Virus record (IMG/VR): IMGVR_UViG_3300021091_005167
Span: 1-34,654 of that record
Reading direction: 5' to 3' (one strand)
DNA length: 34,654 bases
Origin: a virus
Made by a program: the position numbers and the translations under genes. Within the stretch, counting starts at the first letter, position 1, and every line of letters begins with the position of its first letter. Of this stretch, positions 1 through 30,750 are shown in pieces. The notes under the pieces are model-generated. The model ran no database searches and was not told where the DNA came from. It worked only from the letters and a program-made list of their open reading frames with translations.

Positions 1-2951
1 CCATTTTTCCATCCAATATCTCCTTTTTGAGATCTGCCGTTACTTCCATTTAATTTAGGTACAATTTCATAATCGACTAAACCTTCTATAGGGCCCTCTG
101 AAATAATATCTAATATAGAGATATTAGTTAATGACGTTATACCAATATCTTTTGATGCTAATAAATTATTTTTATATCTAAATCCATAATTTGCTTTTGT
201 TTGAACATCTCCAGCTCTACTTACTACTGTTCCTCCTGCGCAAGGTATGGCAGCAGATGTTGCGGTTCTATTCTCTGTTCTTGTTACTCTTCCTTTTGGC
301 ACGCATCCTTTAGCTGTAACTTGACAACATCCTCCTTTACCGCATCGTATAGACCCAATTTTAGGTCCGCTACTATAGCCCATGTTATGAACAAAAACAT
401 CATCTACAATATATGTATTATATCTTTCAACTTTAATATTGTAAGTAAATTCATATCCATCTTTTTCTATAGAAATAATTTTAAGCTCTTTCCAATCGTA
501 AGATATTAATGAATCGCCCACTTCAAAATCAAATAATGGTCGAAATTTACCGTATTTATTTAGGAATGGATGTTCTAATGTACATCTAAGGGTTTTTCCG
601 TTATCTAATTTTACTTTATAAATCGGTACTTCTTCTTTATTATGATTAAATATTTTTTTAATTTTAGATGTTTTTATATTTAAATATTTATCAAAACATG
701 TGACTTCGTCATTTATTTTTAATTCTTCTATATTCTTATATCCATTAGGAGTTAATACTTTAGTTTTCTTTGCAAAACAAGTCGCTGTATAGCTGCAAGC
801 GAATACATCTCCTGCTCTAACTGTTCCATATGTTCCAATCCATGAAGTAAAGCTTGGCACTTCTGCTATACTATTTCCATGATTAAAAGCACAAGTATCT
901 ATAAAAATAACTTTAAAATCATAAGTTCCATTTTTAGAAGGTATTCCATTTGGATATTTTAGAAATCCACTTTTACTTAATCTAGATTTTGCTACAGCAG
1001 ATGTTGTCTCCAAAGATCCTCCATCTCTGGGCGTAGAAAATAAGACCTGATGTGCTATATTTATTCCTGATCCTCCACCTGATATACTAACTCTTGGTAC
1101 ATTATCTGCTGGATTTGCGCTCCATCCACCCATCGCTGTATTTGTACATGTAACGTCTAGCTGTTCACTATCTGGTGTTGATACAGGCCCTAATGTTCCA
1201 TCTGGACTATAGCAAGCATTTCCAAGTCCATCAATTCTTCCTCCTACATTTTTTTCTATGATGCATTTGCCGATAACAGTTAATTCCCATGCACTAACGC
1301 CTCTAGTTAATGATCTTGGATCATCTATTTGCATCCAAAAGGCTGTATTTTTTTCATCTCCAAGGCCTGGGTTAAAAATTAAATCGTTAGAAGATAAAAT
1401 TTTATCTGATGGGTTTGTATATTCTGTAACTTTATTCTTACTGTTATCTATATTAAATGCTTTTACAGATCTTCCAATGCTAAGGTTAGATCCTTGCCAA
1501 ATTTTACCATCTGGCCTATTATATTTTCTAATATTTTGAATTTCTGAGACGTCAATTTTTTTGTATTGGATTACTTCATAATCATTACTAGAAAAATTAA
1601 ATGTAAATTTATTATTTTTAATAACATTTAACGATCCTCTTGGCAAATTAATTCTTGTTGGATATGTTCCTGCGTCAGGCTTATTATTGTCTGAATAAGA
1701 GCCTATGATAAAAATAATCTGCACTACCGCTGTCGAAGTATTTTCATTAGATGCGCTTGCATATGCGATATGTCCAGATCCACTAGTGGCATGTACTGGT
1801 GCACCTGTAATCTTATTATTTGTCGCATCATATGATATGCCTTCTGGAAGATTAGATATACTTACAATTTTTTGTTTACCATTTAGACCAGATATAGATT
1901 CATTAATAGCTTTTCCTACTGTTCCTTTGATAGTTTTTCCTGATATTGTGGGGGCGGTAATAGTTGTCTTTCTTGCTCCAATAACTGCTCCTAATGTAAA
2001 ATCTATAGAATTTCCTTGTTCTGCATCTGGACCTTGAATTGTAAATTTTAAATTTTCTATATGTATTTCGCTTGTGATTGCGGAAGATACATAACCATTA
2101 GGAGCATATATTCTTTTATTTGTTGCATCCCAAGCCAGGTTTAGATTTTCTATTATATTTTTTGTTGTTGTTGTCGGATAAATTTGAGCTCTTGAAGAAT
2201 TAATATTAAAATTATATGGAGTAAATGGTTGTCCCTTAAATATATGTATTGTTGGTGCACTTCTTACGTGAACTTTTAAATCTCCATAAGTATCTCTTAC
2301 AACAACTGTTAAACTTTTTTTCGCTACGGATGATTCAAGATGTTCAACTTTACCTGCTCGAACTATTTTTGCTCCATATAAAGTTGAAACTATTGTTCCG
2401 GTAAAAAAACCAACTTTAGATAAACGACTTTTAAACATGTTTGTAACTGTAGATCTTGGCTCTGGAATCGATAACCCATTAGAGAAATCAGATGGAAATC
2501 CGCTAGTTGTTATTCTCGAGGTAAGTTGATCTGTGGTTATATTAAAAGAAAATTGATTTGCTACTTTATAATTATTATCCGTATAACCTGCGCTTGTTAT
2601 TGCTGCGGATGTAACATGATTATTTGAGGCTTTTTCGCCGTAAGCTATTAAACCCTCTGATAGACTCCATACAAACCAAAAACCTTGGGTAGCGTCCATG
2701 CCTTGTATATCTATATCCATTACTCTATCTGCAAGACCTTGTATTGTTTTTGGACTAAACATAGGATTATGAGCGTCTAACATGTCTTCTACATTTGCTT
2801 CCATGGATGTCGTTGGATTTCCGTTGCTATCGTAAGGTTGTCCAATATCGTTATATTTTATAAATCCATCAAATGAATGTCCATGAGCGCCCCGATAAGC
2901 AAGTCCTTCAATATATTTATTTGGATCACAATCTTTACATTTTTTAGCCAT
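1..2951 (-). CDS. Lambda gpJ-like tail tip / host-specificity protein with long N-terminal extension and Hint domain (partial, 3' end outside window)
   Basis: The reading frame is open from the ATG at 2951 to the window edge (983 codons) and continues outside. The start follows the I gene stop by 1 nt and has AAGGAG 9 nt upstream. Residues about 325-415 look like a putative-Ig (He_PIG) domain with an LPEGISYD-type motif. Residues 725-856 form a Hint (intein-like) domain. At about residue 942 the sequence ISILDILSEGPIEGLVD begins, which matches the conserved start of lambda gpJ, the central tail fibre that binds the receptor. In lambda that motif lies near the N-terminus, so about 940 residues precede it here. 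KSRLSK-GF occurs twice in the extension (about residues 168 and 665). Gene order I-then-J agrees with lambda. The J assignment is strong from context and motif. The role of the extension is unknown; cleavage at the Hint domain could release the J part. Confidence 0.85.
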   Translation of the reverse strand, partial: MAKKCKDCDPNKYIEGLAYRGAHGHSFDGFIKYNDIGQPYDSNGNPTTSMEANVEDMLDAHNPMFSPKTIQGLADRVMDIDIQGMDATQGFWFVWSLSEGLIAYGEKASNNHVTSAAITSAGYTDNNYKVANQFSFNITTDQLTSRITTSGFPSDFSNGLSIPEPRSTVTNMFKSRLSKVGFFTGTIVSTLYGAKIVRAGKVEHLESSVAKKSLTVVVRDTYGDLKVHVRSAPTIHIFKGQPFTPYNFNINSSRAQIYPTTTTKNIIENLNLAWDATNKRIYAPNGYVSSAITSEIHIENLKFTIQGPDAEQGNSIDFTLGAVIGARKTTITAPTISGKTIKGTVGKAINESISGLNGKQKIVSISNLPEGISYDATNNKITGAPVHATSGSGHIAYASASNENTSTAVVQIIFIIGSYSDNNKPDAGTYPTRINLPRGSLNVIKNNKFTFNFSSNDYEVIQYKKIDVSEIQNIRKYNRPDGKIWQGSNLSIGRSVKAFNIDNSKNKVTEYTNPSDKILSSNDLIFNPGLGDEKNTAFWMQIDDPRSLTRGVSAWELTVIGKCIIEKNVGGRIDGLGNACYSPDGTLGPVSTPDSEQLDVTCTNTAMGGWSANPADNVPRVSISGGGSGINIAHQVLFSTPRDGGSLETTSAVAKSRLSKSGFLKYPNGIPSKNGTYDFKVIFIDTCAFNHGNSIAEVPSFTSWIGTYGTVRAGDVFACSYTATCFAKKTKVLTPNGYKNIEELKINDEVTCFDKYLNIKTSKIKKIFNHNKEEVPIYKVKLDNGKTLRCTLEHPFLNKYGKFRPLFDFEVGDSLISYDWKELKIISIEKDGYEFTYNIKVERYNTYIVDDVFVHNMGYSSGPKIGSIRCGKGGCCQVTAKGCVPKGRVTRTENRTATSAAIPCAGGTVVSRAGDVQTKANYGFRYKNNLLASKDIGITSLTNISILDIISEGPIEGLVDYEIVPKLNGSNGRSQKGDIGWKN
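384..779 (-). other. Hint / bacterial intein-like (BIL) domain inside the J-like protein, no endonuclease
   Basis: This in-frame domain of 132 residues (725-856 of the J-like protein) begins with Cys in CFAKKTKVLTPNG. It has a block-B TLEH motif, a block-F VERYNTYIV motif and ends VFVHN. The residue after the terminal Asn is Met, so the Cys/Ser/Thr nucleophile needed for canonical splicing is absent, as in many bacterial intein-like domains. There is no room for a homing endonuclease. Expected chemistry, from the family, is N-terminal Cys acyl shift and Asn cyclisation, giving cleavage or non-canonical splicing. The sequence aligns end to end with the Hint domain in the neighbouring I gene. 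Confidence 0.88.
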
Positions 2952-2952
2952 A

Positions 2953-4257
2953 TTAACTTGCTCCTTGTAAAGACGATGTAGATAAGCTGTTTCCTTCTGT
3001 ATCTACCATATCTATTGGATATCCTTCATGAGTAAAATAATAACTTTTAGTTGGATAATTTTCTTGCCCAGCGTCTGCGGGTGGTGTACTTCCAGAATAT
3101 ACATTCTTTCTTGATTGTATGCGGTATAATTGATCATACGAACTAAAGACTTGATGACTACCTATCAATAGTCTTCCATATCCTAATGGTACTGGCCCGC
3201 CTTCTCCTACAGTATTGACTGGTCCAGAGAACAAATAAGATGGTTCGCCTCCTCCATCTCCAGGAGCAGCCTCAAAATCCGCAGATGGGTTAGCTATTTG
3301 TTGTGGACTAACCATTGGTGGTGGTTTCATAAGAAGCATTGATACTCCTAAAGCAACTAAACCCAAAATAGCTGGCGCTAACTGTGCAAGTGTTAAGCCT
3401 AACAATGGCCCACCAAATGGTATTAATAATAAACCTAAAAATATAGCGAATATACCTTTAACAGAACTCATTCCTCCCTTGCCACCGCTACTCTTGCCTC
3501 CGCCTCCATTATGAACGAATATATCTTCTGCTATATAAGTGTGATATTTTTCTACGTGCATGTTATATGTTTTTTCTTCGCCATCTTCTTCTATATTTTC
3601 TATTGGTAATACGTCGCCAGTTTGATGAATTAATACATCTCCGATTTTAAAATTTTCTAATGGAGTAAATCTATTATATTCATTTAAAAACCAATGATTT
3701 CCTGTAGCTCTAATTGTTTTGCCACCCCATAAAGTTATCTTTAATATTTTATTTTTATCATGGCTAAACGTTTCTGAAATCTTTGATGTATGTATTTTTT
3801 TATCTTTATCAAACGCTATAACTTCATCTCCTTCTTTTAAATCTTCAATATTTTTTAGTCCTGTTGGAGTCGAGATCTTTGTTCCTGCGGGAAAACATCC
3901 TTGAGATCCGCCTCCTCCTCCACCACCCGCTCCCTCAATGACAGGAACAATGTCTATTGTTTCTAATTTTTTACCTAAATTCATGCACATTTCTGATTGA
4001 CAAAGAGAGGTATAATGTTCTTTTTTTATCTCTTTATTCTCTTGAGGTAATTTATCCGCATTTGGAACCCATACAGGTCGATTATTTATTAATATTTCAT
4101 ATTTTGCGTTTTTCTCGGCTTGATCTATTAAAATTTTATTAAATTTTTGAGTATTTGCTTCAATAGCTCTAAAAGCTTCTGCAACGGAACTTACTTCTAA
4201 TTCCCATTCCTTGCCTAGCTCTTCTCCCAAATAGCCATGTAAATTAACCTTTACCAT
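2953..4257 (-). CDS. Lambda gpI-like tail assembly protein interrupted by a Hint domain
   Basis: The protein has 434 aa, against roughly 220 for lambda gpI. Residues 1-105 resemble the ubiquitin-like N-terminal part of the lambda tail assembly protein I family. A poly-glycine stretch (109-117) then leads into a Hint domain (121-250), followed by a second Gly/Ser-rich stretch. Next is a hydrophobic, membrane-like segment (about 268-312, rich in Leu/Gly/Ala). The C-terminal segment contains the family hallmark FSGPVNTVGEGGPVPLGYGR. The start has AGGAG 11 nt upstream and lies 1 nt after the K stop. Removing or cleaving the Hint domain would rejoin or separate two glycine linkers. In lambda, I is needed for tail-tip initiator assembly between K and J, and the neighbours here are the same. 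The I assignment is strong. The fate of the Hint domain is inference. Confidence 0.88.
   Translation of the reverse strand: MVKVNLHGYLGEELGKEWELEVSSVAEAFRAIEANTQKFNKILIDQAEKNAKYEILINNRPVWVPNADKLPQENKEIKKEHYTSLCQSEMCMNLGKKLETIDIVPVIEGAGGGGGGGSQGCFPAGTKISTPTGLKNIEDLKEGDEVIAFDKDKKIHTSKISETFSHDKNKILKITLWGGKTIRATGNHWFLNEYNRFTPLENFKIGDVLIHQTGDVLPIENIEEDGEEKTYNMHVEKYHTYIAEDIFVHNGGGGKSSGGKGGMSSVKGIFAIFLGLLLIPFGGPLLGLTLAQLAPAILGLVALGVSMLLMKPPPMVSPQQIANPSADFEAAPGDGGGEPSYLFSGPVNTVGEGGPVPLGYGRLLIGSHQVFSSYDQLYRIQSRKNVYSGSTPPADAGQENYPTKSYYFTHEGYPIDMVDTEGNSLSTSSLQGAS
3508..3897 (-). other. Hint / bacterial intein-like (BIL) domain inside the I-like protein, no endonuclease
   Basis: The domain spans residues 121-250. 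It starts CFPAGTKISTPTG, has a block-B motif TGNH, a block-F motif VEKYHTYIAED, and ends IFVHN. The following residue is Gly, so no Cys/Ser/Thr nucleophile follows the Asn. Gly-rich linkers flank it on both sides (GAGGGGGGGSQG before, GGGGKSSGGKGG after). The 130-residue length leaves no endonuclease. Key autoprocessing residues (Cys1, the block-B His, and the terminal His-Asn) are present, so cleavage activity is plausible, whereas standard splicing is not. Confidence 0.9.
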
Positions 4258-4258: not shown

Positions 4259-5005
4259 TTATAGACAACTCCTATGCCTTAAAACATAACTGGTATGTTT
4301 TTTAAAAAAGTTATCATATATATTTACACAGGAAAAAGAATTAAAGGGCTGATGCAAAATTGTATTATCTCCTAGATAAACTGCTGCATGTGTAGGGTAT
4401 TTATCTGATACGTTTGGGAATAACATCATTAATCCATCAGATTTTTTTAATTCTGTGCCTTTGGTTAATTTGATAAAGCCCGCATCAATAAAGTTCTTTT
4501 CATACATGTCGTTAATATCTTCTAAAGACCTTGGATAATTTAGTGCATTAGGAAAATTAATTGTTATCTTATGTTCTCTATATGCATACTCTTTCATTAA
4601 CGTAAAACAATCTGATTTTCCTAGTATAAATGGTCTACCAATATAATTATTTGAATGCTCGTTTGGGGAATAAAATTTAAATATATCAAATTTTACATTA
4701 TATAATAGATAATATATATTATATAAATTACTATTATTAGTGTCTATTTGACTAAACTCTAAATTATCATTTGAGTGAGAATGATAACATGCTGTAATTT
4801 TGCCTAATTTTGAGCAACTTAAATAATCTTGCGGAGATATAATAAAGCTATCGTTCTTATTTTTTGCTCTATTTTTGCATGAAAATATATCAAACCTATA
4901 AGTTTCTTGATTAAAATATATTAGTCCGCAGATCTCTTTAGGAAACATTTTAATCGCCTCTTTTTTAATTATATTTTTTATTTGAGAGTTGAACTCGATA
5001 TTCAT
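4259..5005 (-). CDS. Lambda gpK-like tail protein: JAMM peptidase plus NlpC/P60 domain
   Basis: I chose the ATG at 5005, 1 nt after the L stop, giving 248 aa. The open frame extends to a TTG at 5053, but that would lie inside L. The N-terminal half is a Mov34/JAMM metalloprotease-like domain with Glu24 and the zinc motif H75-x-H77-x7-S85-x2-D88, so the catalytic set looks complete. The C-terminal half is NlpC/P60-like, with Cys133 in GKSDCF, His206 in THAAVYLGD and His218/Gln219 as possible third residue. This pairing is the architecture of lambda gpK, a tail-tip protein thought to cut peptidoglycan peptides during entry or to act in tip assembly. Neighbours L and I support it. Confidence 0.9.
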   Translation of the reverse strand: MNIEFNSQIKNIIKKEAIKMFPKEICGLIYFNQETYRFDIFSCKNRAKNKNDSFIISPQDYLSCSKLGKITACYHSHSNDNLEFSQIDTNNSNLYNIYYLLYNVKFDIFKFYSPNEHSNNYIGRPFILGKSDCFTLMKEYAYREHKITINFPNALNYPRSLEDINDMYEKNFIDAGFIKLTKGTELKKSDGLMMLFPNVSDKYPTHAAVYLGDNTILHQPFNSFSCVNIYDNFFKKHTSYVLRHRSCL

Positions 5006-5006
5006 G

Positions 5007-7331
5007 TTAGCTAGAAGATTGTGGCCCTTGTTGAGATTGGTATTTTCCTTCAACAGATGGGTAACCTCCGAAAGGAAGCACGCCGATTAATTGACGGTTT
5101 TCTCTATCTCGTGGAGAGGCAGTTTTATAAGCAATCATCTCATCTTGTTTTATTTGTATTCCATTAGTTTGGAGTGAGTACCCAGAATATTCATATACTC
5201 CGGCAACAGTTATTGTAGGAAAATTTGGATTCTCCTTCCATCTTAATCTGCATCCTTTTAATGTCTTGGAGCATATATCTGCAATCCAAAAGTTTACATT
5301 TGGAGGAGAATTCACTGATGAGGATAAGTGATCTACTTTCGCTACAAAATAATAAAATATACCATTCTTTTCTACAACTACAAAATTATTTCTTTTATAT
5401 ACAATATCTTTTCCCCAATAACCTTTATCTATAAAATTCCTTCTATCATTAGGAACGATAATTTCATCTGTTTCTGTAGCTACAGGAGGGGCCGTTTTTA
5501 AACCTAATATTCTCTGATCTGCTCTTATAGAATGTATTGGCAAAGTATTTGCACTATCTAATGGATAAAAATTACCTGCAACCTCACCATAGACTCCACT
5601 GTGAGCATATGTAATTCTCGTTTTTCTTTCATAGCAGCATCCTTCTCCCCGATAAGTAAGTGGACAATTTTTAGAAAGCAGAAGTCTTCCAGGTAGTTTA
5701 ATTCCTTCGATGTCTAATAAAGATGCAAGCTCATATACAACATTCATAGAGTCTTCTTGAACTTTCCTATCGATATAAAAAATATCTGGGCTTAGCTCGA
5801 CTTCAAATATTTCTGGTTTTACTTTATCAATTCTTTCTCGATGTTCGTCAAAAGAGCTTTTTAATCCGACAAAATTTGAAGAAAATATTTGAGCATTTCC
5901 CGTTGGAGTTTCTTCATCCATCATATAATCTGTTGCTAAAATATTAATATTATATTCATTTAGTGACGTATTATTTAATGTATGCGCTACAAACGTACAT
6001 CCTGTAGAAGAAATATCTTTTATATAAAAATTATTATTATCTGGATTAAAATTCGTATAAGAAGCGTTATATATAAACTTTGGAGTATAATCAAAAGTTG
6101 TTCCAAAAGATATCGAAAATTCTCCAGAAGAGTTCGATCCAAAATTTCTATATATTTTTTGTACGGACATTTTAACGTCATCTTGAGTAAATGGATTAAT
6201 TCCCGTATAAATACCGGTAGGAATAGTTAGGTAATTAATATTCAATGATGTTGTTATTGGTTTAGATAAATTAATTCTTAAACTATTTTGATTCTGCGTA
6301 TTAATTGAATATTCACCATTGTATCCCTCACCTTCAACTAAAGATTGGAAAGAAATAAACGAAACTAAACTTTCCCTTGGCTCTGAAAATGTTAATGGAT
6401 ATGAAATTGTATTTGTACTGCCTCCATCAAAAGATGAAATGTTTTTATTTGAACATAAAATTTTTACTTTATTATTCAAACTATTTCTAAATTCATTAGA
6501 GTCTATATGAATAATTGAACTATAATTTGTATTACTTCCACTAATCATTAGAATATCTGTGGTAAATACATCTTGTATATCTGTAGATAGATTAATAGAT
6601 TCATCTATATGAAGCTGTGCAAAGTCTAAAGAATTAATAAAATAATTTTGTTTTTGAATTTTTGAATTTAAACTTCTTGACCTATCATCCGTCTTAAATG
6701 AAGTAAATATCTTTGAATTACTATAATTAGGCCTTAGATAATAAACAATCCATTTAGAGAAAGTCGATGGGACATTTTTTAGAGTCCTAATTGTTAAAGT
6801 ATCTCCATCTCTTGTCGCCCAAGGAGTATCAGTGAAATTATTAAATGGATTTACATCTCCTTCAAAATTATCTGGACTTAAATATCTAATAAATGTTTTT
6901 CTTCTTGTAACTTTTGATCCGACCACGTCCTTGAGATCATTGATTTGCATGCGAATATATTTATAAAAAGAATTGTATTCATCATCTAAAAATTGACTTG
7001 AAAATTTAACTTTTGGCGTTGGTATGGTTCCATTTGATGTTACGTCAAATTGTTCTCCATATACAGGAAATGGATAATAATAATTACCCTTCCATTTTAT
7101 GATTCCTCTGTTTACTTTAAATAAGTTAAAATCATTATGTATCCTAATTACTCCATCTTTTATGGGGCCTTGGATCAAACCATAATCATTTGCGGTGCCA
7201 GGTTTAATTTCATTTAAATCTATTTCAAATAAAAATATTGGTGTTGTAGGTTCGATCTCATGTATATGAGTATTAATTGCCCTTTGAGACTCTAAAGCCT
7301 GCAGAAAGTAATCACTAGGTTGTATTGCCAT
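5007..7331 (-). CDS. Lambda gpL-like tail tip protein with Fe-S-type cysteines, enlarged by lectin-like insertions
   Basis: The protein has 774 aa, against about 230 for lambda gpL. Residues 1-160 align with the lambda L N-terminus (FLFEIDLNEI, then YYPFPVYG, then VGSKVTRRKTFIRYL). The L sequence resumes near 514 (PDIFYIDRK) and reaches the cysteines C556 in CPLTYRGEGC, C565/C566, C687 and C694 in CSKTLKGC. In lambda, four such cysteines bind an iron-sulfur cluster. Residues about 160-510 are an insertion holding two H-type-lectin-like sandwich modules (about 310-375 and 403-468). A second insertion, between the two Cys pairs, contains a WGKDIVY...FYYFVA...W segment resembling a CBM5/12 carbohydrate module. 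The start overlaps the M stop as TAATG, with GAGG about 10 nt upstream. The L identity is strong. Glycan binding by the insertions is inference. Confidence 0.87.
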   Translation of the reverse strand: MAIQPSDYFLQALESQRAINTHIHEIEPTTPIFLFEIDLNEIKPGTANDYGLIQGPIKDGVIRIHNDFNLFKVNRGIIKWKGNYYYPFPVYGEQFDVTSNGTIPTPKVKFSSQFLDDEYNSFYKYIRMQINDLKDVVGSKVTRRKTFIRYLSPDNFEGDVNPFNNFTDTPWATRDGDTLTIRTLKNVPSTFSKWIVYYLRPNYSNSKIFTSFKTDDRSRSLNSKIQKQNYFINSLDFAQLHIDESINLSTDIQDVFTTDILMISGSNTNYSSIIHIDSNEFRNSLNNKVKILCSNKNISSFDGGSTNTISYPLTFSEPRESLVSFISFQSLVEGEGYNGEYSINTQNQNSLRINLSKPITTSLNINYLTIPTGIYTGINPFTQDDVKMSVQKIYRNFGSNSSGEFSISFGTTFDYTPKFIYNASYTNFNPDNNNFYIKDISSTGCTFVAHTLNNTSLNEYNINILATDYMMDEETPTGNAQIFSSNFVGLKSSFDEHRERIDKVKPEIFEVELSPDIFYIDRKVQEDSMNVVYELASLLDIEGIKLPGRLLLSKNCPLTYRGEGCCYERKTRITYAHSGVYGEVAGNFYPLDSANTLPIHSIRADQRILGLKTAPPVATETDEIIVPNDRRNFIDKGYWGKDIVYKRNNFVVVEKNGIFYYFVAKVDHLSSSVNSPPNVNFWIADICSKTLKGCRLRWKENPNFPTITVAGVYEYSGYSLQTNGIQIKQDEMIAYKTASPRDRENRQLIGVLPFGGYPSVEGKYQSQQGPQSSS

Positions 7332-7885
7332 TATGCCGAAACCTCTTCAATCTTAGCTTTAATAGAATAATTTTCTTTAAAAGTAAAATTCGTTTCCCAT
7401 TCTCTTACTACATATCTTGTTCTATAAAACGTATCGGAATATATTCCTGGAGGATTGTATATGAAAGATTTTGATCCTTGGCGAGATTTAAAGAAATGAA
7501 CGATTGCTCTAGCTTCATGCTCTGTTCTTTGGTCGAATGTCAATTGAAATGTTTTTAAGTCTGGATTAATTGTTTTGCTTATTCTTTGCTCGTATCCATT
7601 ACCAAATCTAATTTGAGTAATCGATGGCTTATGCTGAACCGTTGATGTATAAGACGGTATCCATATAAAAAATGGCACTTTTTCTAAGTTAGGTAGAGAG
7701 ATTACTCCTCCCCAAAATGAATTTCCAGATATGGTTCCTGGCTCTGTTGTGTTCGCTTTTTTAGTATGATCTTTTAAAGAATACCAAAAATTGCCTTTGT
7801 ATCTAACAATATCATTCTTAATAAAATTATGAGTATTATTTGGATACGAATCCCAGCGGGCAATTATATCATTAATAGAAGCCAT
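7331..7885 (-). CDS. Lambda gpM-like minor tail protein with N-terminal CBM-like module
   Basis: The protein has 184 aa, against 109 for lambda gpM. Residues about 75-184 match the phage minor tail protein M family, with ITQIRFGNGYEQR (compare RKVRFGDGYSQR in lambda), LKTFQLTF, KSFIYNPP and a beta-rich end. Residues 1-62 are extra, with aromatic spacing WDSYP...DIVRYKGNFWYSL...FWGG reminiscent of CBM5/12 modules. An AAGG Shine-Dalgarno lies about 7 nt before the ATG. It is the first gene of the leftward tail-tip operon and is read divergently from the fibre genes. In lambda, M acts between the tape measure (H) and L. No tape measure gene is seen next to it here. Confidence 0.87.
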   Translation of the reverse strand: MASINDIIARWDSYPNNTHNFIKNDIVRYKGNFWYSLKDHTKKANTTEPGTISGNSFWGGVISLPNLEKVPFFIWIPSYTSTVQHKPSITQIRFGNGYEQRISKTINPDLKTFQLTFDQRTEHEARAIVHFFKSRQGSKSFIYNPPGIYSDTFYRTRYVVREWETNFTFKENYSIKAKIEEVSA

Positions 7886-7916: not shown

Positions 7917-7924
7917 TTAATGCT

Positions 7925-7933
7925 GTGTAATTT
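7925..7933 (+). promoter_or_regulatory. Candidate phage late-promoter element (GTGTAATTT) upstream of the 268-aa structural gene
   Basis: GTGTAATTT lies 19 nt before the ATG at 7953, followed by AAAAGGTAAAAGGA, which contains the Shine-Dalgarno. It is one of three similar elements at structural gene starts and forms a divergent pair with the minus-strand copy at 7908-7916. It also argues for the start at 7953 rather than the ATG at 7920, since the earlier start would place the element inside the gene. Confidence 0.4.
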
Positions 7934-7952
7934 ATATCAAAAGGTAAAAGGA

Positions 7953-9607: not shown

Positions 9608-12370
9608 ATGTTTTATCAAGGAAAAAATATTTTACTTAAAGTAAATGATCAGGAAATTCTTTCCACCGAAGCTCAGCTAACTTATGAAGCGCGCGTCAGT
9701 CCTTATCTAGAGATTGACCAAAATCAAGCTTTATCAGTTGCTCCAGAAAATACAATACAAGGATCTTTATCTTTCTCTTACTATTTTACTGGAGAAGATC
9801 CAATTAAAAATTTGTTATCTTTAAACAATGGGATTAAATTTGACTTTGGTGGACTAGTACAGACAGGTTATATAAAATCTCATAGCGTTAGAATGGCTCC
9901 TCATAATCCAATAGCATGTAATGCTGAGATAATATTTTTTCGTTCTCCTCTTGGGATTTTTACCCCAAGCTATAATAATGAATCAAATACTGCGCCTATT
10001 GTTCATTTAGATTCTCTAAGTATTTCAAATTTTAATAATCAATTTATTACTGGTAATTACCTTTCCGCAAACTTGACTTATAGTACAGATATAACACCTG
10101 AAATAGTTGTTGGTGAATATCAAGAGAGACGTGGAGTTTTTGGTATCAAAGAAACTACATTAAATATTGTATTAGATAATTTAAATCCTGTCCTAGAAAT
10201 CTCGGGTCAAAAAGCTGGAGTAATTTTTGGAGTAAGTCCTTTAGGTTCGAATTCTCCATCCGAAGCTTACGGCGTCACAGGATTTTTAGTAAAAAAATCT
10301 ATTGGCGCTAAGATAGATGATTTATTAACTAATGAAATTACGATTAAACAGTATAGTTTATTTCCAGAACCTAAGATTACAGGATTTGTTCCTACTAGCG
10401 GAACCCATGGAGATCGTGTAGATATTCTTGGCGAAGGATTAGGGTTTGTAGCAAATGTATTCTTTGGGGAATATCAAGCGAATAGATTTAGAATTATTAA
10501 TGACAGAAGAATTAGGACTAACGTTCCTAGAATATATAAAAAATTTGATAATGAAATAAAAGTTTTAGGGGTTGGTGGCCTTGGAGTATCTTCTGGTTTA
10601 TTTAAATATATTCCTCCTATGCCAGAGATAAATAGAACATCCACAATTACAGGTAATATGGGAGATCTAATTAATATCTTTGGCAGAAATCTTGATTATG
10701 TAGATAATTTATTATTTGCAGAACAAGATATTAATTTTAATCTAGACCGCCGAAATAGGATCTCATTTCTCGTGCCAGAGAATCCAGACACAGGTTTATT
10801 AAGAATTTCTTCCAACCTTTTTAATATTCAGCCAAAGAATACTTTAAATTTCTATCCAATATTTACAATTGAAAATTTCACACCAAAGAATGGCCCAGAC
10901 AACTCAGTAATTTCTATATCTGGCAAAGTTTTAACATCTATAGAAACTGGATACATATACATAAATCCATTTTTAGATGATAAAGATTATGTATTAACTG
11001 AAGGTACTGGTATTTATTCGTTAGGTAGTCAAAGAGCGATATCTGCAAATGATATAGCTTTCATAACAAATATCAATAAAGATCGAGGATATAACGCTTT
11101 CACATTAGTCGATGTGGGCATACAAAATGAGATTAGTGGCAGACCATTTTTAGTTCAATATAAAAATAGCATATCAAATAAAACTGCGGATAACCATATA
11201 TTTCTATTCCCAAAGATATCTAATAATTATATGAAAGTGGATAGATTTACTAAATCTTTTGAAAGTAGTGGATATGATATAGCTACAGTTAGTTTACCAA
11301 CATCATTCTCAGACACTGGATATGCAGTATTTACTACATTAGTATTTGATCATACTGGAGATGGAAATTATTCTACAAAAAATACTTATATTGAAACTAA
11401 AACAACAGGTGATTTCACTGTTAATTCTTGGGAAGAAATATATAGTTCTGGTTATATTGATTACTTAGCAATAAAATACGGAACAGGACATTATGATAGT
11501 GGCTATTACGAATGTGGTAAAAAAATAATTTTTTCAAACCAGCTAGATTGGGAAATACCCTTCCAAAAAAGATATGAATATCCACCGTTTTTAATGGTCG
11601 GAATAGAGTCTTTATACACTGGTACGCCAATAACTGAAGAAGAAATAAATGAAGCTTATAGCGGCATGCTTTGGTATTCTTATCAGAGCAATATTTATAA
11701 TCTAACAGAGACTGGGTTTAATATTAATTTTCCTAGTGGAGCGATCACTGGAGAGCTCTATGATATCGAAAACAATTTTCTAGGAACAAAAATATTCACA
11801 GGGTCATTCATAGTAAATTATTTAGCTATTGAAAATCCTTCTGCAAACTTATCGACATTTGAATATGATGGAAGAATTTCATATTATAAACAATATGAAA
11901 TTGTTTCTGGAAATGAAGACAGTATTAACACAAAAATTGAGCTAAAAAATATACAAAAGATCAATAAAAATCAAATTAATTTTTCTCTTCCCAAGACTCC
12001 GTATCATATTGATGGTAAAATACAGTTATTAAATAATCTTAACATATCCAAAACATCAAATGATTCATTTATAGAGACTCCATTGGCAACTGGAGTTTTC
12101 CCAAAGTCGGCGTATAAAGGGGATACAATTCTTATATCAGGATTGAGCTTCAAAAAACCAATATTAAATGATGGTCAGGGATTTAATGCTGTGAATGTTA
12201 AATTTAGATATTTAGAGAATTTGTATCCTGGTAAAATAAATGGTTTTGATATTAATTGTAGATTATTAGATGTAAATACATTAAGCGGTAAATTGCCAAT
12301 AGGCAGTTTATCTAGCGGAAGGTATGCTATACAGATGATTACTGAAAGAGGAGATGTGATAGAAGAATGA
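9608..12370 (+). CDS. Large virion adhesin/fibre protein with IPT/TIG domains and lectin-like modules
   Basis: The protein has 920 aa. Residues 1-118 are a tail-tube-like domain related to the preceding protein and may anchor it to the tail. IPT/TIG Ig-like domains follow at about 255-338 (ITGFVPTSGTHGDRVDILGE), 340-417 and 420-520 (FTPKNGPDNSVISISG), with another near 830-920 (FPKSAYKGDTILISGLSF). Two H-type-lectin-like sandwiches lie at about 555-630 and 645-745, each ending in a YLAI motif. There is no signal peptide. The stop overlaps the next ATG as ATGA, suggesting coupled translation with the 1873-aa protein, whose N-terminus continues the TIG series. The likely function is glycan or receptor contact at the tail. 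Domain calls are from motifs only. Confidence 0.7.
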   Translation: MFYQGKNILLKVNDQEILSTEAQLTYEARVSPYLEIDQNQALSVAPENTIQGSLSFSYYFTGEDPIKNLLSLNNGIKFDFGGLVQTGYIKSHSVRMAPHNPIACNAEIIFFRSPLGIFTPSYNNESNTAPIVHLDSLSISNFNNQFITGNYLSANLTYSTDITPEIVVGEYQERRGVFGIKETTLNIVLDNLNPVLEISGQKAGVIFGVSPLGSNSPSEAYGVTGFLVKKSIGAKIDDLLTNEITIKQYSLFPEPKITGFVPTSGTHGDRVDILGEGLGFVANVFFGEYQANRFRIINDRRIRTNVPRIYKKFDNEIKVLGVGGLGVSSGLFKYIPPMPEINRTSTITGNMGDLINIFGRNLDYVDNLLFAEQDINFNLDRRNRISFLVPENPDTGLLRISSNLFNIQPKNTLNFYPIFTIENFTPKNGPDNSVISISGKVLTSIETGYIYINPFLDDKDYVLTEGTGIYSLGSQRAISANDIAFITNINKDRGYNAFTLVDVGIQNEISGRPFLVQYKNSISNKTADNHIFLFPKISNNYMKVDRFTKSFESSGYDIATVSLPTSFSDTGYAVFTTLVFDHTGDGNYSTKNTYIETKTTGDFTVNSWEEIYSSGYIDYLAIKYGTGHYDSGYYECGKKIIFSNQLDWEIPFQKRYEYPPFLMVGIESLYTGTPITEEEINEAYSGMLWYSYQSNIYNLTETGFNINFPSGAITGELYDIENNFLGTKIFTGSFIVNYLAIENPSANLSTFEYDGRISYYKQYEIVSGNEDSINTKIELKNIQKINKNQINFSLPKTPYHIDGKIQLLNNLNISKTSNDSFIETPLATGVFPKSAYKGDTILISGLSFKKPILNDGQGFNAVNVKFRYLENLYPGKINGFDINCRLLDVNTLSGKLPIGSLSSGRYAIQMITERGDVIEE

Positions 12371-15300
12371 GTGCAATAATTACATTATTACAGTCTGCTC
12401 CAACTATTCTTTCTTCGGATTTTGTCGCAAGACCTGGAGAAAATATATTAATTTCTGGATTAGAATTTAAGAAGGATATTGTTTATATAGCTGTATATGG
12501 AATAAGTGCGGATTACTACTATGATGCTCACGGTTCTGGATTTAAAAATGTTAGTGGAATCAATAATACTCTTAGCGATAATATTGTAGGTTTTACAGTC
12601 CCAGAGAGTGGGTATGGTAGTAGCGTTAATACTAACAATTCTAATCCTCCAATTTCTTTATCTGGTAGATATCAATTAGAAGTAGGAAATACAAACGGAG
12701 GACAATCAGTTAATTCTGTGCCTATATGGATTGTGCAGAAACCAACCGTAAATTATATCAGTCATCAGTCTGGAGCATTACCTTACGATTATATAAGAGT
12801 TTCTGGTTATAACCTTTACCCTGATCCAAAAGTTTATTTCGTTGATGAATCCAATAATAAGGTTCCGGCTCTGAGTATAGATAGTGGCATATATAAAATA
12901 ACTGGGGTAGAAATTATATCTGGTGGTCAATACTCTTTGGGTGACGAATATTTATTTATAGATCAAAGATTAGAGGGTTTTAAATTATTTGATAATAATT
13001 CTGCATCCTCGGGTTTATTAGAGGTTCACTCTGCTGGTCGAGGTGGAACTGTTGGTGCAATTAGTATTGAATCTAGTGGCCAATTTACTTTAGTTAATAC
13101 TGGTGTTTTAAATCTAAATTATACGGGATATTATCCTGGAGGATTATTTAATTATATATCAGGATTACAAATAAGATTATTATACTCTAAATCTGAATAT
13201 AATAATTCTTATAATGATTTTATTAATATACCCAACTTCCTAGAAGTTCAAGTACCACCACATCTTACTAAGAAACAAAGCATCTTATTCGAAAATCTAA
13301 AGTATAAAAATAATGAAGGATATTTATATACAGGGTTTTTAGTTAATGGTGTTCCTAAGATACATACAATTAATAAAAATATTGTGTATGCAAATTCTGG
13401 CGTTTTAATAGTAAGTGGAGATAATCTAGATTATGTATCAAATGTAAAAATTGGAAATATTAACATACCATTTGCTTATTCTGGAGATAATAAAATCGCT
13501 TTTATTATACCCGATTTAATTGAAAGCAATCCAATCTTTGTCTCTGGTCAATATGGTGTAGATACATCAAAAGATTCATTAAATGTATTATATTTTGCAC
13601 TAAGCGCTTCTGGCTTTAGTCCTAACAATATTTTATTAGAGACTGGCGCGCAAATAAAAATATCTGGGCAATATCTGCATAGAACTAATTACGTAAATAT
13701 AGGCACGCAAAATATACAAAGAAATAAACTTAAGATAAATAGTCTTGGCACAGAATTAACATTTCCATTGCCAAATACTATAGATAGTGACAAGGTATAT
13801 CTATATCAAAAAGATTACCCTGGTACAGGCATATACGTAGCATCGCCTCCATACAATTTGCTCAATACAACAACAAAATTAGATACAAACCTTATAAATA
13901 TAAATTATTTGTCTGGTTTCGATGCTGCAAAATATTTAGATGATGTAGAATTTTATGTGTCTCGGTTAGAAGGTTTTAATGATTCTGGTTTGTATGATTC
14001 AGATATCTTTTTTACAACACCTACAGGTAATATATACTTTAATGAGAGTTATATAATCAGTGGAATTAAAACTTTTAATAACATTACTGGAATAAAAATT
14101 AAACTACCTAGAGAAATAAAAAATCCTCAGTCTCAAATAAAAATTAGAAGAAATAAATTTAAAGATGAATATATTTTACCTTTCGAGAAAGTCGTTAATG
14201 TTTTGCCCTCTATAGCATATATATCTCAATCTAACACAACGTTTGATAATCTAGGATCAGTCATTGTCTCTGGAATAAATGCTTCAAATATTAATATAGT
14301 ATATTTTAGTGGACATTCTGGCACCAAAAATATTTTAGGATTTAAAAACATAGATATAACCGATGTTCCTATAATAGAAAAAGATCTTTTTAATCTAACT
14401 GGGAATAAAGAGCAACAATTAACTGCATATTCCAAAATTTCAACTGAGATTGGTGGGGATATCTATGGATCAGGTAAAGTATTCTTATGGAATACGTTTT
14501 TTAATACAGGCCTTGGTTATGAAAATCATATTTTATCAAATAATTCTGTTAGGGTTTTACCATTAAGCGGATTTAAACCACCAAATTCAGATATATTTAC
14601 AAGTCCCGCTTTTATTTATTCTCCTTTAGATGAGCCATTCTTCTATGCGATAACTACCAACTCTAGAGCCTCTAAATTTAGTTTTGAATATACAAATTTT
14701 AATGGAGTTGATTATGGAGATGCTCCTCCTTCTCAAGAGGGATGGAAAATAAATTCTGCAAACCAACTACAAGGTGTTCCTACTAGTGGTGGTACTTTTT
14801 ATTTTAAAATTAAAGCAATTGATGGCGATAGACCAAATGAAGGAATGATTTTATGGGCAAACTTTGGAGTATCTGGGAGATCTTTGACTGGCCCAGGAGT
14901 TGTTTATAGAGGCGATTTTGATCCAGATAAAAAATATGTTGGAAATAATCTACGTAGAGATATTGTTAAACATAGAGTGCAGAATGTGCAATATTGGTAT
15001 GCAGCTTTTTCAAGTAGTGGATCGTATCCAGCCCTTGGTAATTCAAACTGGTTGCCATTTACGAATGAGTTTGGCTCTACGGCTACTCAGCTCTTTCTCT
15101 CAGAGAGTTCAAATATTACAAGTGATTTAAATATTGGTCAAGAGGGCTTATATTCTGGATATATAAAAACTCCAAATGATATTAATGTTGACGAGGGAAG
15201 CGGATTCTATTTAGGTTATGATAATAGATATAATGTAAATCGGCCAAAATTTAGAGTTGGAAATGAGTTTAATTATATTAAATTTGATGGCGTTGGTTTA

Positions 15301-17988
15301 GATGTTGTGGGACCTCTATCTGGGGTAGTAACTACTTCTAGAGATATTAACTCTAGAAATACAGTAAATTCATCTTTTGCTGTTGCTTTAGGAGAAGCAA
15401 ATTCAATATTGGGCATTAGTAATAATGCCTTAGCTTGCGGATCAACAAACTTTTTAAGTGGAGCAAGGAGATCGGCTGTATTAGGCGGAAAAAATAATAT
15501 AATTACAAAATTACAAACTTTTGAGGCCAATGATTCAACAATCGTGGGTGGAAGTAATAATTTAATCATTGGTGCCTACTGCAATATAGCCGGTGGATCA
15601 ATGAACAAGATTGATGCAAGCCAAACTGGTCTATCATCGATTGCAGATCAAATCTTTATAGCAACGTTCACCGGAACTGGTGTGCCGCCAAGTAATGGTA
15701 GGACTAATTTTGAATTAATTTATCCACAAGAAATTTTTACTAATAAATTAGCTATATTTAATACTGTTAATATATTCAAGAATCAAATTTATGTAGATAA
15801 ATATTATCCTATTCAAACATCTGGATATATTATAGGCTTAAATTCTGGTCTATATGAGGGACAAATTTTCAAGATTCATTCTTGGGTTAGTTTAACCTCT
15901 CCTAGTCTATTCTCTGGAAGCTTTGAGAATAGAAGTAATAATCAAATTTGTGAGTTTAAAGTATTAAAATCTGGTTTTAATAAAGGACTAACTGTATACC
16001 CTATACTATTTACAACACCATTTTTTGATACGAGTCTTAATAGTTCTAGCATATCTATACTTTCGAATATATATATTGAAGATGGAAATAAAAAAGGAGA
16101 AAGTCTATCAGAAAAATATACTATCCAAAATCTTAATGTAACTGGATTTGAAGTAAGATTTACTGGAGTTCTTAATGAAAATGCAATAGGTAATTTTTTC
16201 ATTGGAGAAACTGGATTTTTTAGTGGGTTAGAATTCAATGTTTCAAAAAATTTAGAAGTTGGAAAAATTCATCCTTTACAAAATTTACATATTGGTAATG
16301 ATGTAAATTTTAATATTGGCGTCCGAACTGGAACAGCAATATCATTTCTAGAAATAAATCGACCATATTCTAATAATTTTTATTTAAATAGCATTACTGA
16401 TACTTTACCAAATGCGTTAAAATTTAAATTAAGTAAAGATATAAATATAGAAGACGAATTCTTATATGTTGATTTCTTAGGATATACTGGATTTTTTACT
16501 GGCAATCGTAGCCCAGATCCAAATACTTACCGATATCAAATATTTAGGGTAAGTCTTCCACAAGGATATCAAACTCACAACATCGATCTTCCCGCGCAGT
16601 TTCCAGGAAATTATGGATCTAATTATGCTGTAATAATTAATCAAATAAGCGGTGGTGATAATTATTATCACTATAACATAACTGGAAGAGAAAACAATAG
16701 ATTTAAAATTAATTTTACAGATCGTTTGCTAGAAAATGCTCATTTCAATATTGGTATTTATAAAACGGGAATTTATACCGAAGATTCTGTAAGATACGAT
16801 GTTAGAGTGTATGATATCACTGGGACTACCATAAAAACAAGCTTATATGATATTCCATATGGTGATTATCCTTCTGCCGTTTTTTCAACGGTGGAAAATA
16901 TTAATTCTGATAATCATTATAGTTCTCATATTCATTCTTATAATCAAACCGGCTTTAAAATTAGTTTATCTAAACCACTGAAGAATCTGGAATCTATTAG
17001 GCTTCATGTAGTGACCGCAAGAAATACGGGTATTTATACAAGAACATCATTAGATAGGTTTACAATTGCAGATCAGAATTTAAAAATTAGCGGTTATTTT
17101 GACATCCCATTAAGAAATAATATTATTAAAAAACACACTCTTTTTGCAAGTGCATATACAAATAACCCCGCTTCTCCCTATGTGCGTAGAGTATTTAACA
17201 CTAATTTATTTAATTATAGAAGTAATGATTTTTATTCTATTTCTTTGACCGGTGCGAATCCAGTTCAACAATTAAGTGGGCTAATTATTGATTATGTTGC
17301 TACAGATATGGAACTTGATAAAAATATAGCTAAAGTTGTTCTTGAGGATTATGACTATGCTCGTTTGGCTTCGTTTGGATTTGAAGATGTTGGAAGTAAT
17401 ACTGTCGCAGGAGGAACTGGAAATTATATTAAGGGCGTTGTTTCTAATATTGCAGGGGGCACAATTAATTCGATATTTGGTGATTTTAACACGATTGCTG
17501 GTGGAAGAAGTAATAACGTTATCGATGCTATCGCACAAGAAACAAAATATCCACAGGTTGCATTTTCTAATATAGTTGGCGGATATTCAAATACAATTAG
17601 CGGTAATATACAATTTTCCAATATTCTTGGTGGATCTGGAAATTATATTTATAATGCAAATAGAAATACAAACAGGATAAGTTCTAGTATTTTAGCAGGT
17701 ACCAATAACTTAGTTTCTGGGTCTTATTCTTATGTGCTTGGAAGAAATGTGCAGAACCTTAAAGATGGAACTTCAATAATCACAGATTCAACTACTGGAA
17801 TAAAAAATACATTTCAAGATAATACTATGGTATTATTTTTCTCTGGGGGAGTTTATATAACTGGAAATGCTGCGAATATGTCTCCAATTGTTTTAGATAT
17901 TACTAAGCTCCCCCAACACACTAACACATCTAGTCTTCCAATAGGTGGAATATATAGAAGTGGAAACTATTTAATGATCAAAAATTAA
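12367..17988 (+). CDS. Giant tail fibre/adhesin: TIG domains, CBM-like and lectin-like modules, YadA-like beta-roll repeats
   Basis: The protein has 1873 aa. The N-terminal third is a series of IPT/TIG Ig-like units (e.g. RPGENILISGLEF near 22, FSPNNILLETGAQIKISG near 417, GSVIVSGINASNINI near 633). A putative-Ig domain follows (about 747-835, ending GVPTSGGTFYFKIKAIDGD). A CBM5/12-like YW...W segment lies near 875-900. Two blocks of N-x-I-x-GG-x-x-N repeats (about 1002-1085 and 1672-1799) resemble YadA-type trimeric beta-rolls. Between them are three H-type-lectin-like sandwiches (about 1395-1472, 1481-1560 and 1585-1650). The C-terminus, LPIGGIYRSGNYLMIKN, resembles endings of phage fibre proteins. 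It was probably added to the virion as a trimeric fibre; receptor specificity is unknown. The start overlaps the previous stop (ATGA), with GAGGAG 13 nt upstream. Confidence 0.75.
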   Translation: MSAIITLLQSAPTILSSDFVARPGENILISGLEFKKDIVYIAVYGISADYYYDAHGSGFKNVSGINNTLSDNIVGFTVPESGYGSSVNTNNSNPPISLSGRYQLEVGNTNGGQSVNSVPIWIVQKPTVNYISHQSGALPYDYIRVSGYNLYPDPKVYFVDESNNKVPALSIDSGIYKITGVEIISGGQYSLGDEYLFIDQRLEGFKLFDNNSASSGLLEVHSAGRGGTVGAISIESSGQFTLVNTGVLNLNYTGYYPGGLFNYISGLQIRLLYSKSEYNNSYNDFINIPNFLEVQVPPHLTKKQSILFENLKYKNNEGYLYTGFLVNGVPKIHTINKNIVYANSGVLIVSGDNLDYVSNVKIGNINIPFAYSGDNKIAFIIPDLIESNPIFVSGQYGVDTSKDSLNVLYFALSASGFSPNNILLETGAQIKISGQYLHRTNYVNIGTQNIQRNKLKINSLGTELTFPLPNTIDSDKVYLYQKDYPGTGIYVASPPYNLLNTTTKLDTNLININYLSGFDAAKYLDDVEFYVSRLEGFNDSGLYDSDIFFTTPTGNIYFNESYIISGIKTFNNITGIKIKLPREIKNPQSQIKIRRNKFKDEYILPFEKVVNVLPSIAYISQSNTTFDNLGSVIVSGINASNINIVYFSGHSGTKNILGFKNIDITDVPIIEKDLFNLTGNKEQQLTAYSKISTEIGGDIYGSGKVFLWNTFFNTGLGYENHILSNNSVRVLPLSGFKPPNSDIFTSPAFIYSPLDEPFFYAITTNSRASKFSFEYTNFNGVDYGDAPPSQEGWKINSANQLQGVPTSGGTFYFKIKAIDGDRPNEGMILWANFGVSGRSLTGPGVVYRGDFDPDKKYVGNNLRRDIVKHRVQNVQYWYAAFSSSGSYPALGNSNWLPFTNEFGSTATQLFLSESSNITSDLNIGQEGLYSGYIKTPNDINVDEGSGFYLGYDNRYNVNRPKFRVGNEFNYIKFDGVGLDVVGPLSGVVTTSRDINSRNTVNSSFAVALGEANSILGISNNALACGSTNFLSGARRSAVLGGKNNIITKLQTFEANDSTIVGGSNNLIIGAYCNIAGGSMNKIDASQTGLSSIADQIFIATFTGTGVPPSNGRTNFELIYPQEIFTNKLAIFNTVNIFKNQIYVDKYYPIQTSGYIIGLNSGLYEGQIFKIHSWVSLTSPSLFSGSFENRSNNQICEFKVLKSGFNKGLTVYPILFTTPFFDTSLNSSSISILSNIYIEDGNKKGESLSEKYTIQNLNVTGFEVRFTGVLNENAIGNFFIGETGFFSGLEFNVSKNLEVGKIHPLQNLHIGNDVNFNIGVRTGTAISFLEINRPYSNNFYLNSITDTLPNALKFKLSKDINIEDEFLYVDFLGYTGFFTGNRSPDPNTYRYQIFRVSLPQGYQTHNIDLPAQFPGNYGSNYAVIINQISGGDNYYHYNITGRENNRFKINFTDRLLENAHFNIGIYKTGIYTEDSVRYDVRVYDITGTTIKTSLYDIPYGDYPSAVFSTVENINSDNHYSSHIHSYNQTGFKISLSKPLKNLESIRLHVVTARNTGIYTRTSLDRFTIADQNLKISGYFDIPLRNNIIKKHTLFASAYTNNPASPYVRRVFNTNLFNYRSNDFYSISLTGANPVQQLSGLIIDYVATDMELDKNIAKVVLEDYDYARLASFGFEDVGSNTVAGGTGNYIKGVVSNIAGGTINSIFGDFNTIAGGRSNNVIDAIAQETKYPQVAFSNIVGGYSNTISGNIQFSNILGGSGNYIYNANRNTNRISSSILAGTNNLVSGSYSYVLGRNVQNLKDGTSIITDSTTGIKNTFQDNTMVLFFSGGVYITGNAANMSPIVLDITKLPQHTNTSSLPIGGIYRSGNYLMIKN
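15370..15620 (+). repeat. YadA-like beta-roll repeat block 1 (protein level)
   Basis: Within the 1873-aa protein, short repeats of about 14-16 residues recur: SAVLGGKNNIITK, STIVGGSNNLIIG, CNIAGGSMNKID. The pattern N-x-I-x-GG-x-N-x-I is typical of the head repeats of trimeric autotransporter adhesins and some phage fibres. Confidence 0.65.
17380..17765 (+). repeat. YadA-like beta-roll repeat block 2 (protein level)
   Basis: This is a longer second set near the C-terminus: NTVAGGTGNYIKG, SNIAGGTINSIFG, NTIAGGRSNNVID, SNIVGGYSNTISG, SNILGGSGNYIYN, SSILAGTNNLVSG, SYVLGRNVQNL. The regular spacing and Gly-Gly turns indicate a trimeric beta-roll just before the C-terminal tip. Confidence 0.7.
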
Positions 17989-17997
17989 ACTTTTTTT
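17970..17997 (+). terminator. Weak intrinsic terminator-like hairpin at the convergent junction
   Basis: TTTAAT and ATTAAA form a 6-bp stem with an 8-nt loop, followed by C and a run of seven T. It covers the last codons and stop of the fibre gene. The stem is entirely A-T, so termination strength is doubtful. It is nevertheless the only terminator-like signal where the two transcription blocks meet. Confidence 0.3.
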
Positions 17998-18764: not shown

Positions 18765-18770
18765 TTAAGA

Positions 18771-18799
18771 ATAGTACTATAATTTTAGTATTATGTCAA
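18771..18799 (-). promoter_or_regulatory. Sigma70-like promoter, predicted leaderless, for the annealing-protein gene
   Basis: TTGACA, 17-nt spacer, TACTAT, then 6 nt to the ATG at 18764. The -35 overlaps the last two codons of the preceding gene. A start site about 7 nt past the -10 would fall on or beside the A of ATG. There is no Shine-Dalgarno. It shares this geometry with three other gaps in the block. Confidence 0.55.
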
Positions 18800-21866: not shown

Positions 21867-21871
21867 TATTT

Positions 21872-22456: not shown

Positions 22457-22463
22457 ATATTAT

Positions 22464-22492
22464 ATATTATCAATTATTAATTAATAAATCAA
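22464..22492 (-). promoter_or_regulatory. Sigma70-like promoter, predicted leaderless, for the SSB-like/glycosyltransferase operon
   Basis: TTGATT, 17-nt spacer, TAATAT, then 7 nt to the ATG at 22456. The -35 begins 1 nt after the polymerase stop codon. The region before the ATG is entirely A and T except for one G, so there is no Shine-Dalgarno. The geometry matches the other three promoters in the block. Confidence 0.5.
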
Positions 22493-22493
22493 G

Positions 22494-25266: not shown

Positions 25267-25301
25267 AATTAAATTATATCCTTTTCTTATGTATAATGCA
25301 A

Positions 25302-26697: not shown

Positions 26698-26703
26698 TTA
26701 ATA

Positions 26704-26732
26704 TTTATACTTTATATTATATATAATGTCAA
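26704..26732 (-). promoter_or_regulatory. Sigma70-like promoter, predicted leaderless, for the polymerase operon
   Basis: TTGACA, 17-nt spacer, TATAAA, then 6 nt to the ATG at 26697. The -35 shares bases with the stop codon of the preceding gene. The sequence before the ATG has no purine-rich ribosome site. This is the best consensus match of the four promoters in the block. Confidence 0.6.
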
Positions 26733-30742: not shown

Positions 30743-30750
30743 ACAATATA

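Follow-up and report, generated by a model that had tools for sequence, protein, structure and literature searches.

Hint domains in the adjacent tail-tip proteins I and J of an uncultivated phage as candidate autoprocessing elements

What could two Hint domains do inside neighbouring proteins of a phage tail tip? The question is raised by the IMG/VR virus record IMGVR_UViG_3300021091_005167, which was analysed over its whole length of 34,654 bases (the window) and encodes a lambda-like tail-tip cluster M-L-K-I-J on the minus strand. As best explanation we propose, with a probability of roughly 60%, that the Hints are active endonuclease-free domains of the A-type BIL kind and that the halves of I and J are separated by autoprocessing. 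Activity, products, timing and benefit of such a processing are inferred from what the analysis shows, namely the domains, their active sites, location, conservation and predicted fold. BIL domains, phage inteins and a predicted processing of gpI are already known; among the open-licence PMC papers covered, none was found to describe gpI or gpJ with a Hint domain.

Hint domains in the tail-tip cluster

The first-pass annotation had described a pair of Hint domains without endonuclease in the adjacent proteins I and J. Their positions, their lengths of 130 and 132 amino acids, and Cys1, the TxxH motif and the terminal His-Asn were all confirmed, as were the residues following the Asn (position +1), which are Gly in I and Met in J and not the Cys, Ser or Thr that serves as criterion for class 1 inteins. 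The claimed relationship of the two domains was borne out by 52% identity over 134 alignment columns (E 2e-37). With the Pfam profile PT-HINT, I scored 52.6 bits and J 33.4 bits, both above the curated cut-off of 27.7. The J-Hint scored a little higher with Intein_splicing (35.5 bits), slightly under the cut-off of that profile (35.8). TIGR01445 (intein_Nterm) exceeded its cut-off in I and J, TIGR01443 (intein_Cterm) in I alone. At E values up to 10, PT-HINT matched nothing else in the window.

All features are listed in Table 1. Gene J is open at the window end; contig L003, which overlaps the window with 100% identity in the compared parts, carries the complete J frame of 1775 amino acids (stop to stop). 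In gene K the JAMM-type residues E, HSH, S and D (residue pattern from PMC300881) as well as the NlpC Cys and His are invariant in 15/15 sequences. The assignment of the N-terminal domain of I as Ub-like rests on the description of the lambda gpI family (PMC1779556).

Table 1. Features of the tail-tip cluster in the window
Feature	Position	Strand	Evidence
Gene M	7331-7885	-	
Gene L	5007-7331	-	
Gene K: JAB/MPN + NlpC/P60	4259-5053	-	Pfam profile matches
Gene I with inserted Hint, 434 aa, tail tip protein like lambda gpI	2953-4257	-	phrog_32 E 1.8e-28; lambda gpI alignment
I N-terminal domain, residues 1-109	3931-4257	-	phrog_32 match spans 1-114
I Gly-rich linker preceding the Hint (AGGGGGGGSQG)	3898-3930	-	17-sequence alignment
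I-Hint (BIL-like domain), 130 aa, residues 121-250	3508-3897	-	PT-HINT, AF2, Foldseek
I-Hint Cys1 (C121)	3895-3897	-	invariant in 17/17
I-Hint block B TGNH (185-188)	3694-3705	-	T185 and H188 invariant in 17/17
I-Hint terminal His-Asn (249-250)	3508-3513	-	invariant in 17/17
I Gly/Lys linker past the Hint, GGGGKSSGGKGGMS	3466-3507	-	Lys +5 (K255) invariant in 17/17
I C-terminal half, hydrophobic stretches and plug-like region (lambda gpI from ~101 on)	2956-3465	-	alignment, lambda structure
Gene J, lambda gpJ-like, open at window end	3-2951	-	match of the L003 J core (overlapping contig) to gpJ-type proteins
J N-terminal extension, residues 1-724, beta-rich	780-2951	-	AF2, Foldseek
J-Hint (BIL-like domain), 132 aa, residues 725-856	384-779	-	PT-HINT, Foldseek
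J-Hint Cys1	777-779	-	
J-Hint block B TLEH	570-581	-	
J-Hint terminal His-Asn	384-389	-	
Linker of J and beginning of the canonical gpJ core (SKDIGITSLTNIS..SEGPIEG)	3-383	-	J alignment; lambda J start

In the AF2 model of I, most block means of pLDDT within the Hint lay between 81 and 96 but fell to 67-71 at one point; outside the Hint, N-terminal domain included, the model is poor and the overall mean pLDDT is 50. The nearest solved structure by sequence was 2lwy, a BIL domain of C. thermocellum (E 1.9e-15 for I, 1.8e-24 with the profile), which we take to be an A-type BIL. The same structure came first in Foldseek with the I model (TM 0.87 to target), and a relationship to BIL domains is supported. 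Comparison of the I model with 2lwy gave a VIA Z of 21.0 and an rmsd of 1.6 over 132 aligned residues, with the DnaB mini-inteins tying. BIL2 of Tetrahymena BUBL took rank 2 for the I model, and gp41-1 was among the best PDB matches. For the J model, DnaB mini-inteins lead the Foldseek list and 2lwy follows at rank 6 (TM 0.86 to target). Beyond the Hint, the J model gave weak matches of low TM to Ig/cadherin-like folds.

Distribution and descent of the tail-tip Hints

The clade of close relatives comprises 24 related IMG/VR contigs. The I query matched 24 viral contigs and the J query 21; a query with the Hint-free C-terminal region of I recovered the same 24 contigs, so that the fixed presence of the I-Hint is not a query artefact. 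The search for I/J pairs with both Hints in viral sequences, suggested by the first-pass annotation, found the I-Hint in 23/23 contigs with readable I and the J-Hint in 15/24, and neither domain is therefore the isolated chance insertion which had been named as possible counter-evidence. One contig that contains just the end of I (L026) was left out of the former count. Fourteen J-Hints were called by Pfam and that of L004 by BLAST only, and J was unreadable in L016 and L021. The idea that the two are closely matched as a pair was not supported: seven of the 22 readable J are without a Hint, in which case the I-Hint occurs alone, and the two Hints are separate lineages. The contigs include near copies and are represented by 17 sequences for I and 16 for J (nine with Hint, six without and one split). 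A pair unique to the window genome is ruled out by these relatives. PT-HINT detected no additional Hint gene in the 24 clade records, although a divergent copy could escape this profile, which missed the J-Hint of L004.

In six Hint-less contigs J is continuous (L010, L017, L018, L020, L022, L024), so that in these the J halves either need not be separated or are normally ligated. The seventh, L023, has J in two ORFs: the extension ends with ...GDVYSCRYT and is followed by in-frame TAG AAT TAA, by AAGG and by an ATG, after which the J core begins. A single sequencing error is unlikely because there are two in-frame stops. This split near the Hint site suggests, for one contig, that J extension and core can act as two polypeptides. 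Among 14 aligned J sequences, C719 before the site is invariant and the C906 column after it nearly so, and both are kept in L023. A disulfide between Cys on either side that bridges the J cut is conceivable.

The wider family was sampled with the J core as a query that contains no Hint: at least 600 stretches matched, and the best 80 loci entered the comparison. Outside the clade, these loci (near copies included) contained a Hint in 0/62 complete I and in 4/70 J with an N-terminus, and in other phages with a Hint at the J start, I, where recognised, had none. A Hint query yielded 57 loci, 23 from the clade and 34 from outside. In 26 of the latter the Hint is located in the J-core frame, near the start and within a Gly-rich segment ('GAG-Hint-KGG', 'GSGG-Hint-GGGGK'). 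In six outside loci (L181, L183, L190, L191, L192, L194) the match is an intein or a Hint of a different protein and has Ser or Cys as the next residue, and two more (L184, L189) are truncated; the residue count excludes all eight. The tabulation covers 46 distinct tail-tip Hints (17 from I, nine from clade J and 20 from other J). Their borders were placed with a motif or an HMM, and none of the full-length tail-tip rows was excluded for a missing motif. Cys1, TxxH and HN are present in 46/46, which extends the claim of an intact active site to the entire family. Position -1 is Gly in 35/46, and position +1 is G in 23, K in 13, R in five, T in four and M in one, with C or S in none.

Related genes were also sought in hosts and in isolated phages. 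Among the genome contigs searched, the C-terminal region of I had no relative, and beside related Hints no tail HMM match was found at E 1e-3 (best 80 of 106 genome loci). In isolated phages the full I query gave Hint-only matches (8 records) and the J query none at E 1e-5; with other Hint-bearing J starts as queries, no Hint inside J was seen in the 18 rows of one search or in the 30 listed rows of another, which had 702 more.

The idea that one Hint is a recent duplicate of the other, or that gene conversion has acted between them, was rejected: the mean identity of I-Hint and J-Hint is 42.9% within the same genome and 42.6% across genomes (permutation p 0.30, 9 genomes). It is also opposed by the tree, in which each set forms one clade (98/98 and 99/98). 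In a smaller tree the divergent J-Hint of L116, with its long branch of 2.44, was placed among the I-Hints, a placement that disappeared with more rows. The larger tree, with a midpoint root only, places the tail-tip Hints apart from the sampled bacterial BILs (85/79, moderate support) and joins the I-Hints with J-Hints of other phages (83/85, moderate support), not with those of the clade; several of them share similar Gly/Lys flanks. This grouping makes it plausible that the I-Hint came from a J start in a different phage, with the Gly-rich tracts common to both as the route of transfer.

In a tree of K, Hint-free I and L, the J-Hint-bearing contigs L003, L004, L005/6 and L008/13 branch outside a mostly J-Hint-less subclade, which also includes the Hint-bearing L011/L019/L025; support is low at some inner nodes of this tree (48/59 to 48/66). 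Within the clade the J-Hint would accordingly have been lost several times, or lost once and regained. Both Hints are under purifying selection, with dN/dS values well below 1 (I-Hints 0.04-0.26 in eight chosen, overlapping pairs; J-Hints 0.08-0.30 in five pairs). In two of the eight I pairs the dN/dS of the Hint is about 3-4 times that of the flanks (L005/L006, 0.17; L008/L013, 0.26). Mean identity amounts to 80.0% for the I-Hints, 79.8% for the C-terminal and 74.8% for the N-terminal part of I.

Position of the Hints relative to lambda gpI and gpJ

The cluster shares with lambda gpI, gpK and gpJ the gene order, the gpI-family N-terminal domain, a Gly-containing linker and intact JAMM-type residues in K, whereas gpI and the gpJ start of lambda are without Hint. 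Aligned to NC_001416, the I-Hint follows residue ~101 of lambda gpI, with the Gly linkers loose by a few residues. In the cryo-EM structure of the closed lambda tail, gpI is resolved from residue 101 on and its N-terminal domain is unseen; the resolved part comprises two possible membrane helices and a plug (PMC11101478). This unseen domain may be just flexible and not removed. According to the alignment, the I-Hint is situated within a few residues of the invisible-to-visible boundary of lambda gpI. Iyer et al. (2006) described the gpI N-terminal domain as Ub-like with a Gly-rich linker, regarded its release by the JAB domain of K as probable and predicted the cut at the C-terminal Gly of the Ub-like domain (PMC1779556). 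A self-cutting domain at this boundary would be an independent and testable sign of a processing point in tail-tip assembly, and it touches the question of the fate of the lambda gpI N-terminal domain and its processing by the K peptidase.

The outgroup Hints adjoin the canonical gpJ start from upstream, where lambda J has no Hint. Since they stand just before this start, C-terminal cleavage would leave a protein starting much like lambda J.

Proposed autoprocessing and competing explanations

By the standard chemistry of Hints, Cys1 undergoes an N-S acyl shift and the terminal Asn cyclises (PMC8616854). In I, the end of the Gly linker that follows the Ub-like domain would be joined to Cys1 as a thioester, and the C-terminal half would be released once the last Asn cyclises, so that the Ub-like part is split from the hydrophobic and plug part, the part visible in the lambda tail. 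By the same chemistry, the N-terminal extension of J (~720 residues) would be separated from the gpJ core. With Cys, Ser or Thr absent at +1, cleavage at one or both ends would dominate and some ligation could occur, as has been reported for BIL domains. The products of BIL domains without a +1 nucleophile are predominantly cleaved (PMC7664689); A-type BILs are described as unable to ligate in one review (PMC7765530) and as splicing in some instances in another (PMC5874633). The conservation of the motifs cannot tell splicing from cleavage because both need an intact active site.

The tail-tip Hints and the A-type BIL 2lwy have the same fold, length, Cys1, TxxH and terminal HN, and both are without an endonuclease and without a fixed +1 nucleophile, position +1 being G, K, R or M in 42/46 and T in 4/46 of the former. 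A-type BILs occur in hypervariable regions of non-conserved bacterial proteins (review PMC7765530), whereas the tail-tip Hints are found at recurrent sites of conserved phage proteins. With the same I site used in 23/23, we consider the tail-tip Hint to work like an A-type BIL and to be an atypical variant of this kind. BIL domains would thereby gain a conserved phage structural setting, and the 46 distinct sequences, nearly all of them non-nucleophilic at +1, are of use to protein chemistry. To the PT-HINT pretoxin domains of polymorphic toxins, for which autoproteolytic release was proposed (PMC3482391), the likeness consists in the Pfam family match. These toxins carry a toxin domain downstream, whereas Pfam detected none in I or in the window's part of J, where the downstream parts are tail-tip proteins.

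Alternatively, the Hints might be mini-inteins which excise themselves with joining of the flanks, leave ordinary I and J behind and persist as neutral or parasitic insertions in tolerant linkers. We regard this as possible but rather unlikely. The insertion sites are Gly-rich and have recognisable empty counterparts (J of L116 with Hint, of L110 and L140 without), the tree indicates that the J-Hint was lost or regained inside the clade, and the J-Hint model is nearest to DnaB mini-inteins. Short J leaders (...RGAG) are moreover similar with or without a Hint, which fits religation or a recent insertion. Against splicing speak a +1 position that holds Cys or Ser in 0/46 and Thr in 4/46, and an I-Hint that is retained in 23/23 records. 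The Hints measure 130-133 amino acids and lack the endonuclease, and the I flanks are low-complexity Gly, for which an exact joining seems needless. They also occupy Gly-rich or variable linkers and not, as would be expected of a class 1 intein, a conserved motif of the host protein. Of the phage inteins, gp41-1 and the phiCbK TerL intein belong to the same superfamily; the latter is flanked by residues that show absolute conservation across 50 TerL proteins, and the next residue after it is Ser (PMC3556154), whereas the tail-tip Hints lie in linkers and lack Ser or Cys at +1.

It is improbable that the Hint drives a transfer, in which the Gly-tail thioester of the Ub-like domain would be passed to an amine, e.g., as isopeptide to a nearby Lys like in the ciliate BUBL BIL2. 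The architecture of I (putative Ub-like domain, Gly tail, BIL) fits such a reaction, and BIL2 of Tetrahymena BUBL1, which is reported to form Lys isopeptide bonds without ATP (PMC8616854), is close in fold. Lys +5, invariant in 17/17 I, is suggestive only: Gly/Lys segments are found at Hint-less J N-termini too (L110, L140, lambda J), and this Lys may therefore be native or a membrane-flanking charge, which weakens the idea of a special nucleophile. Furthermore, the Zn ligand H125 of BIL2 aligns with Asn in the tail-tip Hints (counted by eye). BIL2 adjoins a Ub-like domain; the I-Hint adjoins a domain that matches the gpI family and whose putative Ub-like fold is taken from the literature, its model being poor. 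BIL2 belongs to a eukaryotic polyubiquitin locus and the I-Hint to an assembly protein of a phage, in which one half is a hydrophobic plug. We likewise give little credence to the I-Hint as an E1-independent activator that would convert the Gly tail of the Ub-like domain into a thioester and hand it to Lys, a phage analogue of BUBL conjugation in ciliates with the K JAMM domain as deconjugating partner. Acceptor Lys of such an activator might be Lys +5 of the I linker or be part of J or of another tail or host protein.

That the Hints are inactive and retained as structural linkers, as the absent +1 nucleophile and an activity known from prediction would permit, is very improbable with three catalytic motifs intact in 46/46.

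A further observation concerns a regulation by Zn as in BIL2: counted by eye, H48 of BIL2 aligns with an invariant His of I (H166).

Filled, empty and divided J genes

Among viral contigs outside the clade, the J starts of L116:8591-8800, which contains a Hint domain, and of L110:1985-2100, which does not, are related. In L116 the Hint domain is flanked on either side by a GAGGGGG motif, an arrangement that resembles a duplicated target. In L023, a contig of the same clade with a Hint-free J, the sequence TAG AAT TAA, followed by AAGG and an ATG (7923-7950), splits J into two ORFs of the same frame, and this split point lies close to the position of the J-Hint in the relatives. Inteins with a +1 Ser interrupt ORFs of three further contigs outside the clade (L181 and L183:4954-6531, L190:4951-7122); in these ORFs the intein is adjoined by SGATPH/SGACPH, a putative subtilisin-like active-site motif.

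K peptidase and neighboring tail genes

Features of the window
Feature	Position	Strand	Description
K	4259-5053		JAB/MPN and NlpC/P60 both present; catalytic-type residues retained
Minor tail protein L	5007-7331		774 aa
1873-aa ORF	12367-17988	plus	

Given the domain composition of K and its retained residues, two routes, peptidase and Hint, may be directed at one and the same target in this phage, the linker of I. The L protein comprises 774 aa, whereas lambda L is encoded by a 699-base CDS; its middle part gave a weak Pfam match to the H-type lectin family (PF09458, E 0.0011), which is under the cut-off.

Remaining genes

For the 1873-aa ORF the Pfam search yielded nothing over the cut-off. 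The region 17985-34557 encodes an exonuclease subunit, a primase, a DnaB-like helicase and a UvsX-like recombinase, and a DNA polymerase III alpha-like sequence is spread over two ORFs. ThyX, a PD-(D/E)XK nuclease and, as sugar genes, three glycosyltransferases and a GDP-mannose dehydratase are likewise encoded there.
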